From positions 1 through 23,507 of IMG/VR virus record IMGVR_UViG_3300037502_002046: a stretch of 23,507 bases of DNA; one strand, 5' to 3'. Every line of letters starts with the position of its first letter. Position 1 is the stretch's first letter. The notes below the pieces were generated by a model. That model was not told the DNA's origin. It worked only from the letters and a program-made list of their open reading frames with translations, and searched no databases. Positions 7,275-17,177 of this stretch are shown piece after piece. This DNA comes from a virus. The position numbers and the translations under genes are program-made.

Positions 7275-7622
7275 TCACGTTGTATATTCTACGGACTCGA
7301 TTTGACTTTCTGCAATTAAGGCGGAGCAAACTTTACAGGGGGCAGAATAGCACGGCTTGTTGTTAGCATCAACCCTGGCAATGTACATTTTGACCCCTTT
7401 TCCCTTGCTACGTACAAGAGCAAGCATTTCAGAATGAGCGTACTCTTTACACATCCCAAGCTTTTTAGAGGCTTTAGCCATCATTGGATGGGTTTTGCGA
7501 TAATCGTTAGCTCCCTCTGCAACAATCTTACCACGCTTATCTACGATTACACAATAGTGCCTGCTCCTGTGTCTTTGATAAGGCAATTCTGAGGCTTTTT
7601 GGATGCAATAATCAATAGACAT
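7275..7622 (-). CDS. Cytidine/deoxycytidylate deaminase-like zinc enzyme
   Basis: The 115-residue product has the zinc-deaminase signature. His63-Ser-Glu65 (YAHSEMLAL; usual form H-A/S-E) supplies a zinc ligand and the proton-shuttling Glu. Pro95-Cys96-Lys-Val-Cys99 supplies the two Cys ligands. An N-terminal beta hairpin (HYCVIVDKRGKIVAEGAND) fits the fold. Known members hydrolyse cytidine, dCMP or related bases, feeding dUMP/dTTP synthesis or base changes. The substrate cannot be read from the sequence; at 115 residues it is short for a dCMP deaminase. No SD is obvious; the ATG directly follows the previous stop. Confidence 0.8.
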   Translation of the reverse strand: MSIDYCIQKASELPYQRHRSRHYCVIVDKRGKIVAEGANDYRKTHPMMAKASKKLGMCKEYAHSEMLALVRSKGKGVKMYIARVDANNKPCYSAPCKVCSALIAESQIESVEYTT

Positions 7623-8416: not shown

Positions 8417-9673
8417 TTACGCCATAAGTCTGTGTTTGTGTACTATACCGTCTTCTTTAGAGCTTACACTTAGTGGTACAAGGTTGTCAACTCCAAATCG
8501 AGCACGGAAACAATCAGCCATGGTCTGAATCAAAAGATTCTCATGCTCCCTTGCTGTCAAAAAGCTGTCATGCACAGGTAGGCAAGGAATCCCCTTCTTA
8601 ATGAAGACAGATAAAATGTCAGAGGCTAGGTTACTATCATCATTCTGCAAGATACGCCCATAGCTATCGTTTTCACAGAACAGGTCACAGAACTCTGGAT
8701 AATTCTCAAAAATAAGGTTCATCACTGACCTTGCCTTTCCGAGATTATAGATTAACTTTTCATCTTTGGTTAATTTGTTAATCTCTTGCTGAATAGCTTG
8801 TTGGGCCGTTTCTTCGCTTTTGCTGTTAAACATGATATTAACCGCTAGTTTAACAATTTCCCGATCTACATAATTATTTTCATCATCGATGATTCCAGAA
8901 TAAATATCCAGCGGGATATCATCGAACGGTAAACCTTCCTTAGCAGCCGCAATACGGAAATGTAGATTGGAAAAATCTACTTCGATCACAGGACTACCAT
9001 CAATTGTAACACCAAGACGAGATTTAGTTTTCTTGTTTTTCAATTGGAGAATGTCGGCTTTGTAGAAACGTCCGCCATAATTAAAATTCTCGTTGAAAAT
9101 ACGACAATAGAAGTTAGTTAACACTTGTCCATGTTCATCACAAATCACGGCTTGTTCATTGATTTTGTTAAGTTTTCGTACCAAATCTTCCATCTCTTTC
9201 ACAGTCTGATTACTCCTAAAATTTGTTGGGAGTTTGTTTGTATCTCTCAGTTCAACCACTTGAAACCCTTCTTGATATGCCTGTTCACACTTTATCATAA
9301 ACTCCTCACACTTGAACATTTGAATAAATTTATCTGTTGGTGTCATGAAGCTTACCTTGCGTTTCTCTTTGTATGCATGGGCTGTACCTTTGAAATTAGT
9401 GACAAACCCTTCTTTCTCAAGGAAATCAACACATTTCATCACTTTCTTGGCGTTAACACCCTTCTTACTGTTCCCGAACCCTGCTGTGCTTCGGCTATAG
9501 GTTAACACACTACCCTTACGAAGGCAAGAGATGAGATTTGCACACACAACGTTAAGAGTAGTGATATCATCATAACCCAACCACTTAGTCTTGTTTCGTA
9601 CATCCAATCCTACCTTTAAGTCGTAAGTTAGCAATCTACTGTTTATTAGTACACCACCATCCTCCTCTACCAT
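8417..9673 (-). CDS. Compact polymerase-A-like protein (418 residues) with N-terminal winged-helix-like region
   Basis: ATG with a strong GAGGAGG ribosome site. Residues about 35-110 look like a winged helix (GVNAKKVMKCVDFLEKEGFV). The C-terminal half carries motifs of the polymerase I / T7 RNA polymerase palm in order. Motif A: VIEVDFSNLHFRI (Asp233). Motif B: Arg271-x3-Lys275-x3-Asn279 (REIVKLAVNIMFNS). A Q-x-x-D-S-x-x-A-S-D-I segment (343-353) resembles the QGTAADI helix of Pol I. Motif C: PVHDSF (His368-Asp369). HDS is typical of single-subunit RNA polymerases, HDE of DNA polymerases. There is no exonuclease domain. I recall related phage/plasmid proteins annotated only as hypothetical. 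Primer synthesis, replication initiation or transcription are possible roles. First gene leftward from the divergent region. Confidence 0.7.
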   Translation of the reverse strand: MVEEDGGVLINSRLLTYDLKVGLDVRNKTKWLGYDDITTLNVVCANLISCLRKGSVLTYSRSTAGFGNSKKGVNAKKVMKCVDFLEKEGFVTNFKGTAHAYKEKRKVSFMTPTDKFIQMFKCEEFMIKCEQAYQEGFQVVELRDTNKLPTNFRSNQTVKEMEDLVRKLNKINEQAVICDEHGQVLTNFYCRIFNENFNYGGRFYKADILQLKNKKTKSRLGVTIDGSPVIEVDFSNLHFRIAAAKEGLPFDDIPLDIYSGIIDDENNYVDREIVKLAVNIMFNSKSEETAQQAIQQEINKLTKDEKLIYNLGKARSVMNLIFENYPEFCDLFCENDSYGRILQNDDSNLASDILSVFIKKGIPCLPVHDSFLTAREHENLLIQTMADCFRARFGVDNLVPLSVSSKEDGIVHKHRLMA

Positions 9674-9726
9674 CTTCCCCCCTCCTCTATCATATAAATT
9701 CTTTTTAAGGTAAAATAAACCCTACA

Positions 9727-9786
9727 GCCCTTGTGGCACTAAGCGTTGAGGTCAAATCACCAGAAGTAAAATCTACCCCACAGGGC
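9727..9786 (-). promoter_or_regulatory. Inverted repeat in the leader of the polymerase-like gene
   Basis: Minus strand GCCCTGTGG (9778-9786) can pair with CCACAAGGGC (9727-9736) with one bulged base, closing a 41-base loop. It lies in the roughly 120-base leader downstream of the predicted transcription start. A 5' regulatory structure is possible; no known riboswitch class is recognised. Confidence 0.4.
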
Positions 9787-9802
9787 AAAACCAATAGGGA
9801 GC

Positions 9803-9832
9803 ATTAAACCACATTCGTAGCACGAAAGTCAA
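9803..9832 (-). promoter_or_regulatory. Leftward promoter for gene 8417-9673
   Basis: Minus strand TTGACT (9827-9832), 18-base spacer, TTTAAT (9803-9808). It matches five of six -35 bases and four of six -10 bases. The spacer is slightly long. The leader to the ATG is about 120 bases. Confidence 0.6.
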
Positions 9833-9865
9833 GCATTCCCTGAAAATATTTTCTTGTTCTTGTTG

Positions 9866-9894
9866 TTGACAAGCTAAGAAATGGTGTGTACTCT
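9866..9894 (+). promoter_or_regulatory. Rightward promoter of the replication arm
   Basis: TTGACA (9866-9871), 17-base spacer, TACTCT (9889-9894). The leader of about 55 bases contains a small AGGC/GCCT hairpin and ends with AGGGGA before the first ATG. The -10 TACTCT and spacer length are the same as at 5387-5415. Confidence 0.7.
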
Positions 9895-9954
9895 TGTATC
9901 CCATAGGCCACTAAAACAGCCTAAACAAGTGAAATTGTAACCTAGGGGACACAA

Positions 9955-12819: not shown

Positions 12820-12858
12820 GAGGATGTTTGATTGAGTTATTTTAAGAAAGGAGATAAA

Positions 12859-14499
12859 ATGCGTAACGAAGATGGCTATGTCCCAAAAGAAACTGTTGCT
12901 GATGTGCAAGCACTGAAAAGTGTTGATGTACCAGAACGAGGTATTCGTAAAGAAACACTAGAACGCTTTGGTGTTAAAGTTGCTGTATCCCAAGAAGATG
13001 GGAAAACCCCAGAAGCTGTTTATTTTCCCTCTTATAATCAAAAAGGGAAGATTACTGGCTATGCAAAACAAGATTTGACAAAACCAAAGGAAGAGAAGTA
13101 TCATTGGTCTGTTGTCGGTAGTGTGACCATTGGTAATAAACTATTTGGTCAGAATGTGGCGGAAGCTCAGAATCGTAAACGTAACAACCTAACCATCACT
13201 GAGGGACAGTGGGATATGCTCTCTGTGTGGCAAGCAGGTGTTGATAGCGTAAAAGGAACTAAATACGAAGGGATTGAACCCCTTGTTGCTTCTATTCCTA
13301 TGGGCACAGCTAACGCTGTAGAATCAATTCTACACAACGAAAGCTATGTTCTTTCTCACGACTCTTTGACTATTTTCTTTGATGATGACCACTGCACACC
13401 AGCAGAGCTTCAGAAAAAGATTATGAAAGGGCATGAGGCTCGTGAAGCTGTAGCTAATGCTTTGGTTGGATCAGGGATTAGTCTATTTGCTGTAACGCCA
13501 GAAGAAGGCTTTAAAGACGCTTCTGACTACATGCAAGCAGGACGTTCAGAAGACCTAGCAAAGCTTGTGCAGTTTGGTCGTCGTCCATATTCATCTGAAA
13601 AGATTGTGAAGGCAATTGACCTAGATTTGGATTATCTGCTAGAGCCACGTCCAGAAGGCATTTATGTAAACAGCTTTCCTAAGCTTATGGACAAGCTACA
13701 CGGGTTTCGTACACGAGAACTGTGTCTGCTTACCAGTCCTAGCGGGGTTGGTAAGTCAACAGTTTGCTCAATCTTTGCTTCTGCTTTTATGGAAGCTGGT
13801 GAAAAGCTTGGAATGATCTATCTGGAGGAAACGAACAAGGAAACTATTCAACGACTAATTGCATCTAAACTGAAAGTAAACTATCTTGAGTTTAAGAATA
13901 ATCCCCTGAAAGTGGCAAGTCGTGAACGTATTGAGAAAGCTTACAAAGAGATTGTAGAGAATGACCAGCTTGTTATGCTAGGCCACTTCGGCAGTCTGCC
14001 TGTTAGTGAGCTTATGGCTAAGATTAAACACATGCACTTGGTAGAAGGCTGTAATTTCATTATCCTTGATCACCTAAGCCTTGTGATTTCTGGTAGTGCT
14101 GTAAAGGATGAACGCAAAGAGCTTGACATGGTGATGACAGAGCTAGCTGCTTTCTGTGCTGCTAATGAAGTGTGCATTATTGCTGTTAGTCACATCAACC
14201 GAACTCTTGCAGATCAGTTTAAGGCACCAAAGCTTAAAGATGGAGAAGAGCCTAAACCTTATTGGGTACAAGTTACGAAGGAGTCAATGCGTGGCTCATC
14301 TGCGCTCGAACAGCTAAGCTTTGTTATCCTTGGTTTGGAGCCTGAGATTAATCCAGATCGAAGCCGTGGCCGTGTACGACTGACAGTGCTAAAGAACCGT
14401 CCTTGGGGTTATCTTGGTGTTTGCGATGCTTTCACAATTGATGACGAGAGCTGGGAAGTGTTGCTATCTAATGATGAGTTTGATAATGTAGATTTTTAA
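12859..14499 (+). CDS. T7 gp4-type primase-helicase without the zinc-ribbon domain
   Basis: Start chosen at ATG 12859 (AAGGAG 6 bases upstream); a TTG at 12832 with its own TAGGAGG would add nine residues. Residues (ATG numbering): TOPRIM fold with Glu115 (ITEGQWDML) and Asp175-177 (FFDDDH); RecA-type helicase with Walker A SPSGVGKST (Lys299), Walker B IILDH (Asp404), an AVSHINR motif near 442-448, and RGSSALEQLSFVILGLE like T7's RGSGALRQLS. It should form a hexameric ring that unwinds DNA 5'-3'. The Cys4 zinc ribbon that T7 gp4 uses to read primer sites is absent (no Cys near the N-terminus), so primer synthesis may be altered or rely on a partner. Confidence 0.93.
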   Translation: MRNEDGYVPKETVADVQALKSVDVPERGIRKETLERFGVKVAVSQEDGKTPEAVYFPSYNQKGKITGYAKQDLTKPKEEKYHWSVVGSVTIGNKLFGQNVAEAQNRKRNNLTITEGQWDMLSVWQAGVDSVKGTKYEGIEPLVASIPMGTANAVESILHNESYVLSHDSLTIFFDDDHCTPAELQKKIMKGHEAREAVANALVGSGISLFAVTPEEGFKDASDYMQAGRSEDLAKLVQFGRRPYSSEKIVKAIDLDLDYLLEPRPEGIYVNSFPKLMDKLHGFRTRELCLLTSPSGVGKSTVCSIFASAFMEAGEKLGMIYLEETNKETIQRLIASKLKVNYLEFKNNPLKVASRERIEKAYKEIVENDQLVMLGHFGSLPVSELMAKIKHMHLVEGCNFIILDHLSLVISGSAVKDERKELDMVMTELAAFCAANEVCIIAVSHINRTLADQFKAPKLKDGEEPKPYWVQVTKESMRGSSALEQLSFVILGLEPEINPDRSRGRVRLTVLKNRPWGYLGVCDAFTIDDESWEVLLSNDEFDNVDF

Positions 14500-14508
14500 G
14501 GAGATGAG

Positions 14509-16614
14509 ATGTTGGATGAAAACGAAATTATCCTAGATATTGAGGCAGATGGATTCATTTTTGAATCAACAAAAATCTGGACTGTCTGTGCAACAAATAT
14601 CCAGTCTGGTGAAAAGATTAAACTTAATCCTTTTAAGGATCAAGATGCAAAGGATAAGCTCATTTCTTTCATCTTTAAAAAAGAAAATCCAACAATCGGA
14701 TTTCACTACGGGCTGGGATACGATATGTTTGTTCTGCAAAACCTGCTTGATATTAAATTTACGGTTGGTAAAGATACAATTGAAGGCAGGCCAGTACAAT
14801 TTGTGGATACCCTGTATTTGTCAATGTTCCTCAACCCTGATAGGGACGGTCACGGTATTGAAGCGTTTGGTGAAATTCTCGGTCTTGAGAAAATCGACTA
14901 TCGTGAAAAAGCAATTGAACTTGGACTAATTGACCGTAATGCCCCTAAAGGAGCTGAGTTTATGCAGTGGCATCCAGAAATGGATGTTTATTGTGAACGT
15001 GACGTGGCTGTGAACATTCTTGTTTTCAAATATTTGAAAAAAGAGTGGAAAGATGTTTACGGAAAAGATTTCTCAATCACCGATGCCTTTAAGTGCGGAC
15101 AGAAGTCTTTTTACCTGATGTCATGCCAAGAACTAACAGGCTTTAAATTTGACATTGAAGGGGCTAAAAAGCTCTCTGTAAAAATTCAAGAGATGATGGA
15201 AGAAATTCGTGCTGATGTTGAACCCAAGCTTCCACCAAGACCATTGAAGAAGGGTGAGCAGAAAGAATACACGATGCCTGCAAAGCCATTTAAAAAAGAT
15301 GGAACATTCTCTGCAACTTGGCTGAAGTGGGCTGAAAAGCACAACGGCGTGCAACGTGGTGAACAGTGGGAGTTTTATGGTAAACTCTATGATGTTATTG
15401 GTGGTCAACTTCTAGATATTAAACTTCCAATGGAAATGGCTAACCAAGATCAGATGAAGGATTGGTTCTTGGAAAATGGCTGGTCGCCGACGCTCTGGAA
15501 TTACCAACGTGGCCCAGATGGAAAGCCTATGCGCGATCCAAAGACCCGTAAACTTATTCCAACAAGCCCGAAGATTCAGGAAACACAAAAGATTTGTCCT
15601 AACTTGCTGAAAATGGAGGGTGATATTGTAAAACAGGTGGTGAAGTGGTTAAGTTTACGCAATCGGCTTTCTGTCTTGCAGGGTTGGTTGGATAATCCTC
15701 GTTTGGAGATGGATGGACGAATCGGTGCAGGGAGGACGGGCATTGCCGCGACACACAGGCAACGACATCATACTGTTGTAAACGTCCCGAAAGCTTCTGA
15801 GAAGGTATTGCTTGGTAAGGAGTTTCGTAGTCTTTGGATTGCAGAGGATGGCTTCTTGATTGCCGCAGGTGACGCAGCGGCATTGGAAGGGCGTGTGATG
15901 GGGCACTATACCTTCAAATACGATGGTGGTGAAACTGCAACTGAAATTCTTGAAGGCGATCCACACTCTAAGAATGCTATTGCTTTCTATGGGCATGAAA
16001 GGGACATTCAAAAGTTCGACATCCAATCAGAGGATTTTGATAAGGACGATCCCGTTTTTAAGCCGTACCGGGATAGAAGTAAGAACGGATTTTACGCTAT
16101 TTTGTATGGTGCTGGCGGCCCTAAAGTGGCGAGTACCCTTGGCCTTCCAGAGAAGATGGGTAATGATAAGCTAGAGAAATTTTGGCAAGCAAACCCTGCC
16201 ATTAAGGCTCTTAGGGACAATTTAGAGAAGTATTGGGAGAGTGTAGGAAAAAGCAAATATCTTCCAGCTATTGATGGTCGCATACTCTGTACTCGCAAAA
16301 AGAGTGCTTTGCTTAATACGATCTTTCAAAGTTGTGGCGGTATCACAATGGACTATGCTGGATGTTTCATGGATGTGTGGCTTGGCGGGTTGAAGTGGAA
16401 GGATCGGAAGCCTTACTACGAGTATAAGGGATATATTGTTCGTCGGATTGCTTATCAGCATGACGAATACGAGTATGAAGCTGAAGAGCCGATTGCAGAG
16501 GAAGTTGGAAAGATGATTGAAAAAGCGATTGAGAAAGCAGGGCAATATTTGAAACTGAACGTGCCTCTAGCTGGAGAGGCTAAAATTGGGAAATCGTGGA
16601 AAGAGGTTCATTAA
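14509..16614 (+). CDS. Family A DNA polymerase with 3'-5' exonuclease, T7 gp5 type
   Basis: 701 residues, close to T7 gp5 (704). Exonuclease: Asp10/Glu12 (LDIEADG), Asp72 (YDMF), Tyr161-x3-Asp165 (YCERD). Polymerase motif A GDAAALE (Asp455, Glu460); motif B Arg521-x3-Lys525-x3-Tyr529 (NGFYAILYGAG); motif C QHDEYE (His651-Asp652). This is the replicative polymerase, acting at the fork with the primase-helicase 9 bases upstream. The usual Asn of exonuclease motif II is Tyr67, and the Ser of motif A (DASGLE in T7) is Ala. AAGGAGATGAG precedes the ATG. Frame intact; its TAA overlaps the homing endonuclease start. Confidence 0.96.
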   Translation: MLDENEIILDIEADGFIFESTKIWTVCATNIQSGEKIKLNPFKDQDAKDKLISFIFKKENPTIGFHYGLGYDMFVLQNLLDIKFTVGKDTIEGRPVQFVDTLYLSMFLNPDRDGHGIEAFGEILGLEKIDYREKAIELGLIDRNAPKGAEFMQWHPEMDVYCERDVAVNILVFKYLKKEWKDVYGKDFSITDAFKCGQKSFYLMSCQELTGFKFDIEGAKKLSVKIQEMMEEIRADVEPKLPPRPLKKGEQKEYTMPAKPFKKDGTFSATWLKWAEKHNGVQRGEQWEFYGKLYDVIGGQLLDIKLPMEMANQDQMKDWFLENGWSPTLWNYQRGPDGKPMRDPKTRKLIPTSPKIQETQKICPNLLKMEGDIVKQVVKWLSLRNRLSVLQGWLDNPRLEMDGRIGAGRTGIAATHRQRHHTVVNVPKASEKVLLGKEFRSLWIAEDGFLIAAGDAAALEGRVMGHYTFKYDGGETATEILEGDPHSKNAIAFYGHERDIQKFDIQSEDFDKDDPVFKPYRDRSKNGFYAILYGAGGPKVASTLGLPEKMGNDKLEKFWQANPAIKALRDNLEKYWESVGKSKYLPAIDGRILCTRKKSALLNTIFQSCGGITMDYAGCFMDVWLGGLKWKDRKPYYEYKGYIVRRIAYQHDEYEYEAEEPIAEEVGKMIEKAIEKAGQYLKLNVPLAGEAKIGKSWKEVH

Positions 16615-17177
16615 TGACAGAAATTTGGAAACCTTTGATTTTAGATGATATACAACTAAGGTATGCTGTCAGCAATAAGGGTAGAGTTTTTGACCTGAAA
16701 TTGCTTAAATATCTCAATATAAATGATAACGGGGCAGGGTATAAAACCGTTGCTATGATGGGGCCAAGGAGTAAGCTAAGGCTCAGGTATTTGCATAGAC
16801 TTGTCGCACATGTTTTTCTTGACAATCCAGACAATTTACCGCAAGTTGGTCACAAAGACCACACAAGGGATAATAACGTAGTTGATAATTTGTACTGGAC
16901 AACTCAGAAACAGAACACACAAGATGGGATAAAAGCTGGTAAAATTAATGCAAATCGTCCAAAAAGTAATAGGACGTTGACAAAGGAAGAAATCTGCACT
17001 ATTGCCTTGCTTGAATCTGAGGGTTATGGTGTTGCTGAGATTGCTAAGAAACTTGGCTGCCACAGAACAACCATCTCAAGTGTTTTCAATGGTAGGAGTA
17101 ATTGGGAGCTTTTCTCATTTGCAAGAGAAGAGATTGCTTCAATGAAAATACTTCAGAAAACATTTGACAACCCCTGA
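16614..17177 (+). CDS. NUMOD4-HNH homing endonuclease
   Basis: 187 residues from ATG 16614, which overlaps the polymerase stop (TAATG) and has AGAGG 8 bases upstream; a GTG at 16596 is possible but weaker. Residues 4-26 are NUMOD4-like (WKPLILDDIQLRYAVSNKGR). The HNH core has LHRLVAHVFL (His61), VGHKDHTRDNN (His80, His83) and NLYWTT. A DNA-binding helix-turn-helix (VAEIAKKLGCHRTTISSVFNG) ends the protein. Such free-standing nucleases cut intronless relatives to spread themselves; the polymerase gene is a typical neighbour and likely target. The -35 of the next promoter lies inside its last codons. Confidence 0.92.
   Translation: MTEIWKPLILDDIQLRYAVSNKGRVFDLKLLKYLNINDNGAGYKTVAMMGPRSKLRLRYLHRLVAHVFLDNPDNLPQVGHKDHTRDNNVVDNLYWTTQKQNTQDGIKAGKINANRPKSNRTLTKEEICTIALLESEGYGVAEIAKKLGCHRTTISSVFNGRSNWELFSFAREEIASMKILQKTFDNP

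Follow-up and report, generated by a model that had tools for sequence, protein, structure and literature searches.

A divPolA2-family polymerase of a phage, with relatives in bacterial integrative elements and at the ICP1 origin region, as a candidate initiator primase-polymerase

The window, i.e. the complete stretch of 23,507 nucleotides analysed here (IMG/VR record IMGVR_UViG_3300037502_002046), is part of a phage genome, and a 97% identical copy of the gene under study is present in an 88.8-kb IMG/VR record. The gene is an open reading frame on the minus strand with an ATG start. Its parts and the neighbouring features needed below are as follows.

8417-9673, minus strand: divPolA2-family polymerase gene (PHROG 4756), 418 amino acids; phrog_4756 E-value 1e-61
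9266-9673, minus strand: N-terminal domain, residues 1-136, putatively winged-helix-like
9062-9076, minus strand: GGRFY motif, residues 200-204, aligned to TGRLSS..QNIP of Pol I
8954-8983, minus strand: motif A, residues 231-240 (E-V-D233-F-S-N-L-H238-F-R), with D233 as catalytic Asp and H238 at the position of Pol I Glu710
8819-8863, minus strand: motif B (O-helix), residues 271-285, with N283 at the position of Tyr766 (Pol I) or Tyr639 (T7 RNAP)
8624-8659, minus strand: G339..L342-Q343..D346-S347 helix preceding motif C, from the family alignment
8555-8581, minus strand: motif C, residues 365-373 (LPV-H368-D369-S370-FLT), with D369 catalytic and S370 at the position of Glu883
9674-9954, no strand: divergent intergenic region upstream of the gene, at the minimum of the cumulative GC skew in the window
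12832-14499, plus strand: DnaB-like helicase/TOPRIM primase-helicase, from profile matches
14509-16614, plus strand: T7-like family A DNA polymerase, replicative, 701 amino acids; phrog_17 E-value 1.8e-94

The gene at 14509-16614 bears out a claim of an earlier note made from the letters alone, namely that the phage has a full T7-type DNA polymerase elsewhere. The PHROG match of the primase-helicase begins only at profile position 103 of 801, and the protein may be without the N-terminal zinc-binding domain by which primases of the T7 type initiate primers. An HNH homing endonuclease-like gene (16596-17177, plus strand) lies directly 3' of the DNA polymerase gene. The region 12948-17122 is common to the window and Pseudomonas phage vB_PsaM_M1, with a DNA identity of about 73%. 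An ORF of 115 amino acids at 7275-7622 (minus strand) resembles a zinc-dependent nucleotide deaminase in its HSE...PCxxC pattern, and homologues of it occur near the polymerase gene at three other loci (L002, L103 and L008). At L103, L104 and L106, the polymerase gene and about 30-120 bp upstream of it are 84% identical in DNA, while the flanks (6 kb on each side) are almost entirely without DNA similarity, as if gene and leader moved or persisted as a unit.

The window protein was assigned to the divPolA2 family, which corresponds to PHROG 4756 (no function assigned), so the family itself is not new. The divPolA2 representative AUR84708 (MG592441.1) matches the family HMM built here with an E-value of 6e-43. 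In Pfam, no family was found for the window protein at E-values up to 1, PF00476 included, and searches of NCBIfam and, by sequence, of the PDB gave no meaningful match, only the TrmB winged helix appearing in NCBIfam (0.0056). In the open-access literature searched, the name divPolA2 was found only in Yutin et al. 2024 (Virol J 21:200, PMC11348598) and in the preprint of the same work. The family was described there in barbaviruses and other phages only, with one to three copies per phage in addition to the regular DNA polymerase and in a variable neighbourhood. The palm was described as active, neither an exonuclease nor a known thumb was recognised, and the N-terminal domain was 'without detectable similarity' to known domains (PMC11348598). 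A role as "repair DNAP or RNA polymerase" was suggested, no function was given, and the main text is silent on integrases and mobile elements (PMC11348598). The window protein agrees with this description in its homology, its palm without a 3'-5' exonuclease and its companion DNA polymerase. Two divPolA2 copies each were found in three genomes (G015, G016, G017), and gene neighbours are not conserved among the 47-55% relatives. New here, for an already known family, are its bacterial integrative-element branch, a link to replication origins by coincidence with that of phage ICP1, a co-varying His/Asn/Ser triad and a winged-helix-like N-terminus.

Among 65 diverse phage and bacterial relatives, residues G201, R202, F203, R219, D233, R271, K275, H368 and D369 are invariant. 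E231, N283, D346 and S370 are nearly invariant (62/65 for N283, 63/65 for S370), and position 238 is His in 54/65. In a wider set with this region aligned, all 110 sequences have D233, K275 and D369, so the two aspartates are kept throughout the relatives. The earlier note had read motif A, motif B, a Pol I-like Q...SDI helix and motif C in correct order within only 418 residues. This order holds (V-I-E-V-D233-F-S-N-L-H238-F-R-I, R271-x3-K275, the Q343..D346-S347 helix, P-V-H368-D369-S370-F), with an invariance of the core residues that is beyond chance. For motif B, given there as R-x3-K-x3-N, the R271-x3-K275 part stands, but the conserved Asn is N283 rather than N279 (33/65).

In a profile comparison with bacterial PolA, the counterpart of GGRFY is TGRLSS..QNIP, that of D233 the motif A Asp, that of H238 Glu710 and that of HDS the HDE motif; N283 was placed by its K+8 spacing. 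This alignment is collinear over 208 columns with a probability of only 22%, whereas profile-profile comparison with T7 RNAP gave no collinear alignment. Which of the two is the closest relative is not settled by sequence alone. At positions 238/283/370, His/Asn/Ser is found in 20/31 phage and 56/79 bacterial sequences, and a phage subgroup carries Glu/Asn/Glu or Glu/Tyr/Glu. The latter is the Pol I state and is that of AUR84708, while the window protein has His/Asn/Ser. The triad appears to co-vary in replacing Glu710/Tyr766/Glu883. In the phage subgroup the three positions tend to change jointly in the direction of Pol I, which suggests that the active site is functional. The window protein holds the selectivity set of neither Pol I nor T7 RNAP and may use either dNTPs or rNTPs.

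These observations bear on the possibility that the protein is a DNA-binding regulator of excision or copy number which has retained the fold but is catalytically dead or does not polymerise. The unusual substitutions at the positions of Glu710, Tyr766 and Glu883 would fit such a regulator. However, the catalytic Asp pair and the motif B Lys were lost in none of the 110 sequences and the triad positions tend to change in concert, which makes the inactive regulator offered in the earlier note most improbable.

An AlphaFold2 model of the window protein, calculated on the family alignment, reached a mean pLDDT of 93 and a pTM of 0.90, and a family A palm/fingers fold is confidently predicted. In the PDB, Foldseek ranks DNA polymerase I of Aquifex pyrophilus first (4e-6), ahead of mitochondrial RNA polymerases. 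TM-scores of Foldseek to PDB chains were low (mostly 0.2-0.4), and VIA-align was relied on instead. It gave Z-scores of 15.0 for yeast mitochondrial RNAP (3.6 A, 250 residues), 14.7 for the apicoplast DNA polymerase and 13.5 for T7 DNA polymerase. The matches span mainly residues about 132 to 402-413, and many of the alignments begin only at residues 132-142. A recognisable thumb may be missing, as also stated for the family (PMC11348598), which would fit short, distributive synthesis. Fold prediction and conserved catalytic residues together agree with a minimal right-hand family A polymerase without exonuclease, as first read from the letters. Compared to DNA polymerase I and T7 DNA polymerase (PF00476), the protein shares palm and fingers, the motif A Asp, Arg..Lys of motif B, His-Asp of motif C and GR..Q. 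It differs in lacking the exonuclease, in having about half the length and in carrying His238, Asn283 and Ser370 in place of the steric-gate Glu, the O-helix Tyr and the motif C Glu. From model and alignment, we regard it as a small and probably active relative of polymerase I.

The same data were considered with regard to a single-subunit RNA polymerase for the transcription of phage or element genes, its winged helix reading the promoter. Such an enzyme was suggested by Yutin et al. (PMC11348598) and was also proposed, for phage genes, in the earlier note. The HDS motif C is as in T7 and mitochondrial RNAPs (T7, N4 RNAPII and mitochondrial enzymes share it), the structural score of yeast mitochondrial RNAP is tied with those of the DNA polymerases, and a few family members weakly match RNAP families (phrog_414, best 0.00039; PF00940, best 0.036). 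The position of the gene at divergent operon junctions would also be in line with a transcriptase. On the other hand, its N-terminal region is unrelated to that of these enzymes, no RNAP promoter-binding domain being recognised, and only PolA gave a collinear profile alignment. His238 stands where T7 RNAP has its steric-gate Gly542, and Asn283 where it has the O-helix Tyr639. A dedicated RNA polymerase is moreover hard to motivate in 8-kb elements consisting of an integrase and a restriction-modification operon, where homologues form the only replication-type gene recognised (see below). With the selectivity sets of RNAP and Pol I both absent, we consider this reading unlikely. N4 RNAPII gp16, which is of similar length (404 amino acids), was dropped as kin since the motif C patch alone aligns.

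Residues 1-136, modelled separately with AF2 (pLDDT 84), comprise helices at 23-32, 37-53 and 75-87 and wing strands at 91-94 and 108-112. In structural comparison, the top matches are almost exclusively proteins of the winged-helix type (MarR, Fur, ScpB, Orc1, eS10) with Z-scores of 6.0-6.7. These values are below 8, the level called clear, and the winged-helix-like nature of the N-terminus is therefore suggestive. The DNA-reading domain which the earlier note had thought possible is supported to this extent.

The polymerase gene is the first leftward gene, and the divergent junction upstream of it coincides with the minimum of the cumulative GC skew. The region 9674-9954 may thus be a candidate origin or a bidirectional promoter region. 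Of the 'first leftward promoter' read earlier, the gene order is confirmed but sigma-70-like sites at the junction do not stand out from chance (8 sites, 6.3 expected). Iterons or origin-like repeats upstream of the polymerase gene were not found beyond chance in 84 loci. In three 88-kb relatives of the window phage, 4/5 divPolA2 copies lie at or beside a divergent junction with a cumulative GC skew minimum, and in one genome (G018) the lowest point of the whole genome lies 181 bases from the divPolA2 gene start. Because GC skew follows the direction of transcription, skew minima at divergent junctions are weak and not independent evidence.

A single search of 85,000 genomes, made with a pair of short patterns, yielded 180 relatives. 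A member was found in 24/398 sampled species of Pseudomonadota with the seed included (23/397 others), which corresponds to about 6%. The numbers for Thermodesulfobacteriota and Nitrospirota, likewise including the seeding genome, are 5/198 (4/197 others) and 2/100 (1/99 others), respectively. In the tree, a single branch separates phage from bacterial members (SH-aLRT 99). The commonest neighbour of the bacterial genes is a tyrosine integrase (43/82 loci, many of them truncated), followed by serine resolvases and type I/III restriction-modification genes. In a first set, all ten loci with a tRNA or tmRNA gene have part of that gene repeated such that the repeats enclose the polymerase gene. 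A second sample of 18 loci, taken from the HMM survey and not chosen for neighbours, showed enclosing repeats in 10/12 loci with a tRNA gene and an integrase in 15/18 (within the 15-20 kb fetched). The att direct repeats bounding the polymerase gene are 15-60 bp long, and 20 elements of 7.7-16.6 kb could be delimited by them. When tRNA genes were compared to other loci as a control, the longest repeat was at most 13 bp in 290/306 pairs; the exceptions (14-20 bp) could plausibly be att sites where elements occupy tRNA genes of the same type.

The elements contain an integrase and the divPolA2 protein, often a resolvase and mostly defence cargo, e.g. restriction-modification, TIR, AbiE, Cas9 and similar systems. 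Minimal elements (Thioclava, Marivivens) hold little beyond integrase, divPolA2 protein and a type III restriction-modification pair. A Pfam scan of 59 non-core proteins of 10 delimited elements revealed no helicase-primase, Rep, relaxase or other polymerase, which leaves the divPolA2 protein as the only replication-type gene recognised there. In a Rhodobacterales group, a non-coding stretch of 131 bp (L015, 5247-5377, and its equivalents in L020, L021, L022 and L029) is 90-98% identical, while the polymerase genes are only about 67-69% identical, which points to strong constraint at the element end. The stretch ends about 165 bp upstream of the gene and was considered as an origin; since it starts at the att site, it was read as attachment-end DNA instead.

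The abundance of defence genes could indicate that divPolA2 is itself part of the cargo, as a defence or counter-defence effector with template-independent polymerase activity like the Abi reverse transcriptases. We consider this very unlikely, as the gene is constant across elements while the cargo varies, no convincing match to defence families was obtained with PADLOC, and the gene is common in lytic phages and lies at the ICP1 origin. A closer parallel is found in pipolins, which also integrate into tRNA genes, have only the polymerase gene and the att sites as constants, and carry recombinases and variable cargo (PMC7385651). The bacterial elements (not the window) resemble them in integrase, tRNA att repeats and constant polymerase, but not in polymerase family. 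The piPolB of pipolins belongs to family B and its primer-independent synthesis has been demonstrated (PMC7385651), whereas the polymerase of the elements belongs to family A by its predicted fold and has a putative winged-helix-like domain.

In phage ICP1_2006_E (MH310934.1), a family member is encoded by ORF100 at 58,951-60,618, 32 kb away from the DNA polymerase gene ORF58 (23,821-26,547). Barth et al. used this isolate throughout and found an early coverage peak of theta replication "near the 60 kb position" at 8 min, with a strain that lacked part of the CRISPR region (PMC7145576). ORF100 coincides with this peak, the position of which was taken from the published plot with 1-kb bins (PMC7145576). 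The chance that a given gene falls within 2.5 kb of the stated point is about 5%. According to a review, the ICP1 origin lies between the tail and capsid modules, and no phage RNA polymerase is predicted (PMC9040626). An initiator of early ICP1 replication is not named in the open-access literature searched. In the ICP1 isolate 2017_Dha_A (L271, MW794152.1), compared to HQ641347.1 (L009), a single small gene and another member of the family take the place of ORF98-102, and the triad is Glu/Tyr/Glu instead of His/Asn/Ala. Such a swap is as expected of an exchangeable initiator-origin module. The ICP1 satellite PLE likewise combines an initiator gene (repA) with a divergent non-coding origin, although its RepA_N is a DNA-binding initiator without polymerase and of unrelated fold (PMC7145576).

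Element anatomy and the ICP1 origin also affect the reading of divPolA2 as a repair or translesion DNA polymerase which fills gaps or protects element or phage DNA and has no part in the start of replication. Yutin et al. proposed a repair role (PMC11348598), and a small enzyme without exonuclease alongside a replicative polymerase in phages would be compatible with it. It leaves unexplained the near-constant pairing with an integrase in minimal elements and the place at the ICP1 origin, and of the 59 scanned neighbours only one, Vsr, is clearly a repair gene. We therefore judge it to be quite unlikely.

Taken together, we lean towards the divPolA2 protein being an origin-linked initiator primase-polymerase. 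This is the alternative of the earlier note (initiator or primer synthase) favoured by the element anatomy and the ICP1 origin, and the simplest reading that covers both phage and element settings. The winged-helix-like N-terminus would bind DNA at or near an origin beside its own gene, and the reduced family A palm and fingers would make the first strand or primer there. A dedicated replisome would then take over, that of the host in bacterial elements and the phage's own DNA polymerase and helicase in phages. We infer polymerising activity, origin binding and priming without a pre-existing primer from the predicted fold, the invariant catalytic residues, the element anatomy and the map coincidence in ICP1. 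By analogy with piPolB of pipolins, divPolA2 may be the elements' own replication gene, and the frequent serine resolvase is as needed for resolving replicated multimers. Counting against this initiator role, the phages already carry a primase-helicase, many phages do without a divPolA2 gene, replication of the elements could be initiated by the host at an origin that went unrecognised, and a few of the cargo proteins are ATPases (AAA_15, AAA_21, SMC_N).

In a wider form, which we put forward tentatively and with more doubt than conviction, divPolA2 would be a new class of initiator combining origin recognition (winged helix) and self-primed synthesis (His/Asn/Ser pocket) in one chain of ~45-60 kDa. 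It would define widespread, unnamed, self-replicating and defence-carrying elements as a family A counterpart of pipolins. In large phages, ICP1 among them, it would determine where early replication begins, with whole initiator-origin modules being swapped between isolates. The initiator proposal provides a testable function for a polymerase family that had none when it was described in 2024, and it offers a candidate for the starter of early DNA replication in the cholera phage. It also draws attention to a large set of small elements that integrate and carry restriction-modification, CRISPR-Cas9 and other defence genes, and whose replication is so far unexplained. If self-priming holds true, the enzyme would be a family A counterpart of piPolB, with an active site that resembles neither that of Pol I nor that of T7 RNA polymerase.

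As a separate observation, a 12.1-kb element of Desulfovibrio sp. UBA6079 (L227, G005:C51:72000-91999) was seen by eye to carry an apparent type II CRISPR-Cas9 system. It comprises a Cas9-like protein of 1058 amino acids, Cas1-like and Cas2-like proteins and an array of repeats with units read as CSREGNEVKPQ, and these genes adjoin the integrase, the resolvase and the polymerase gene.
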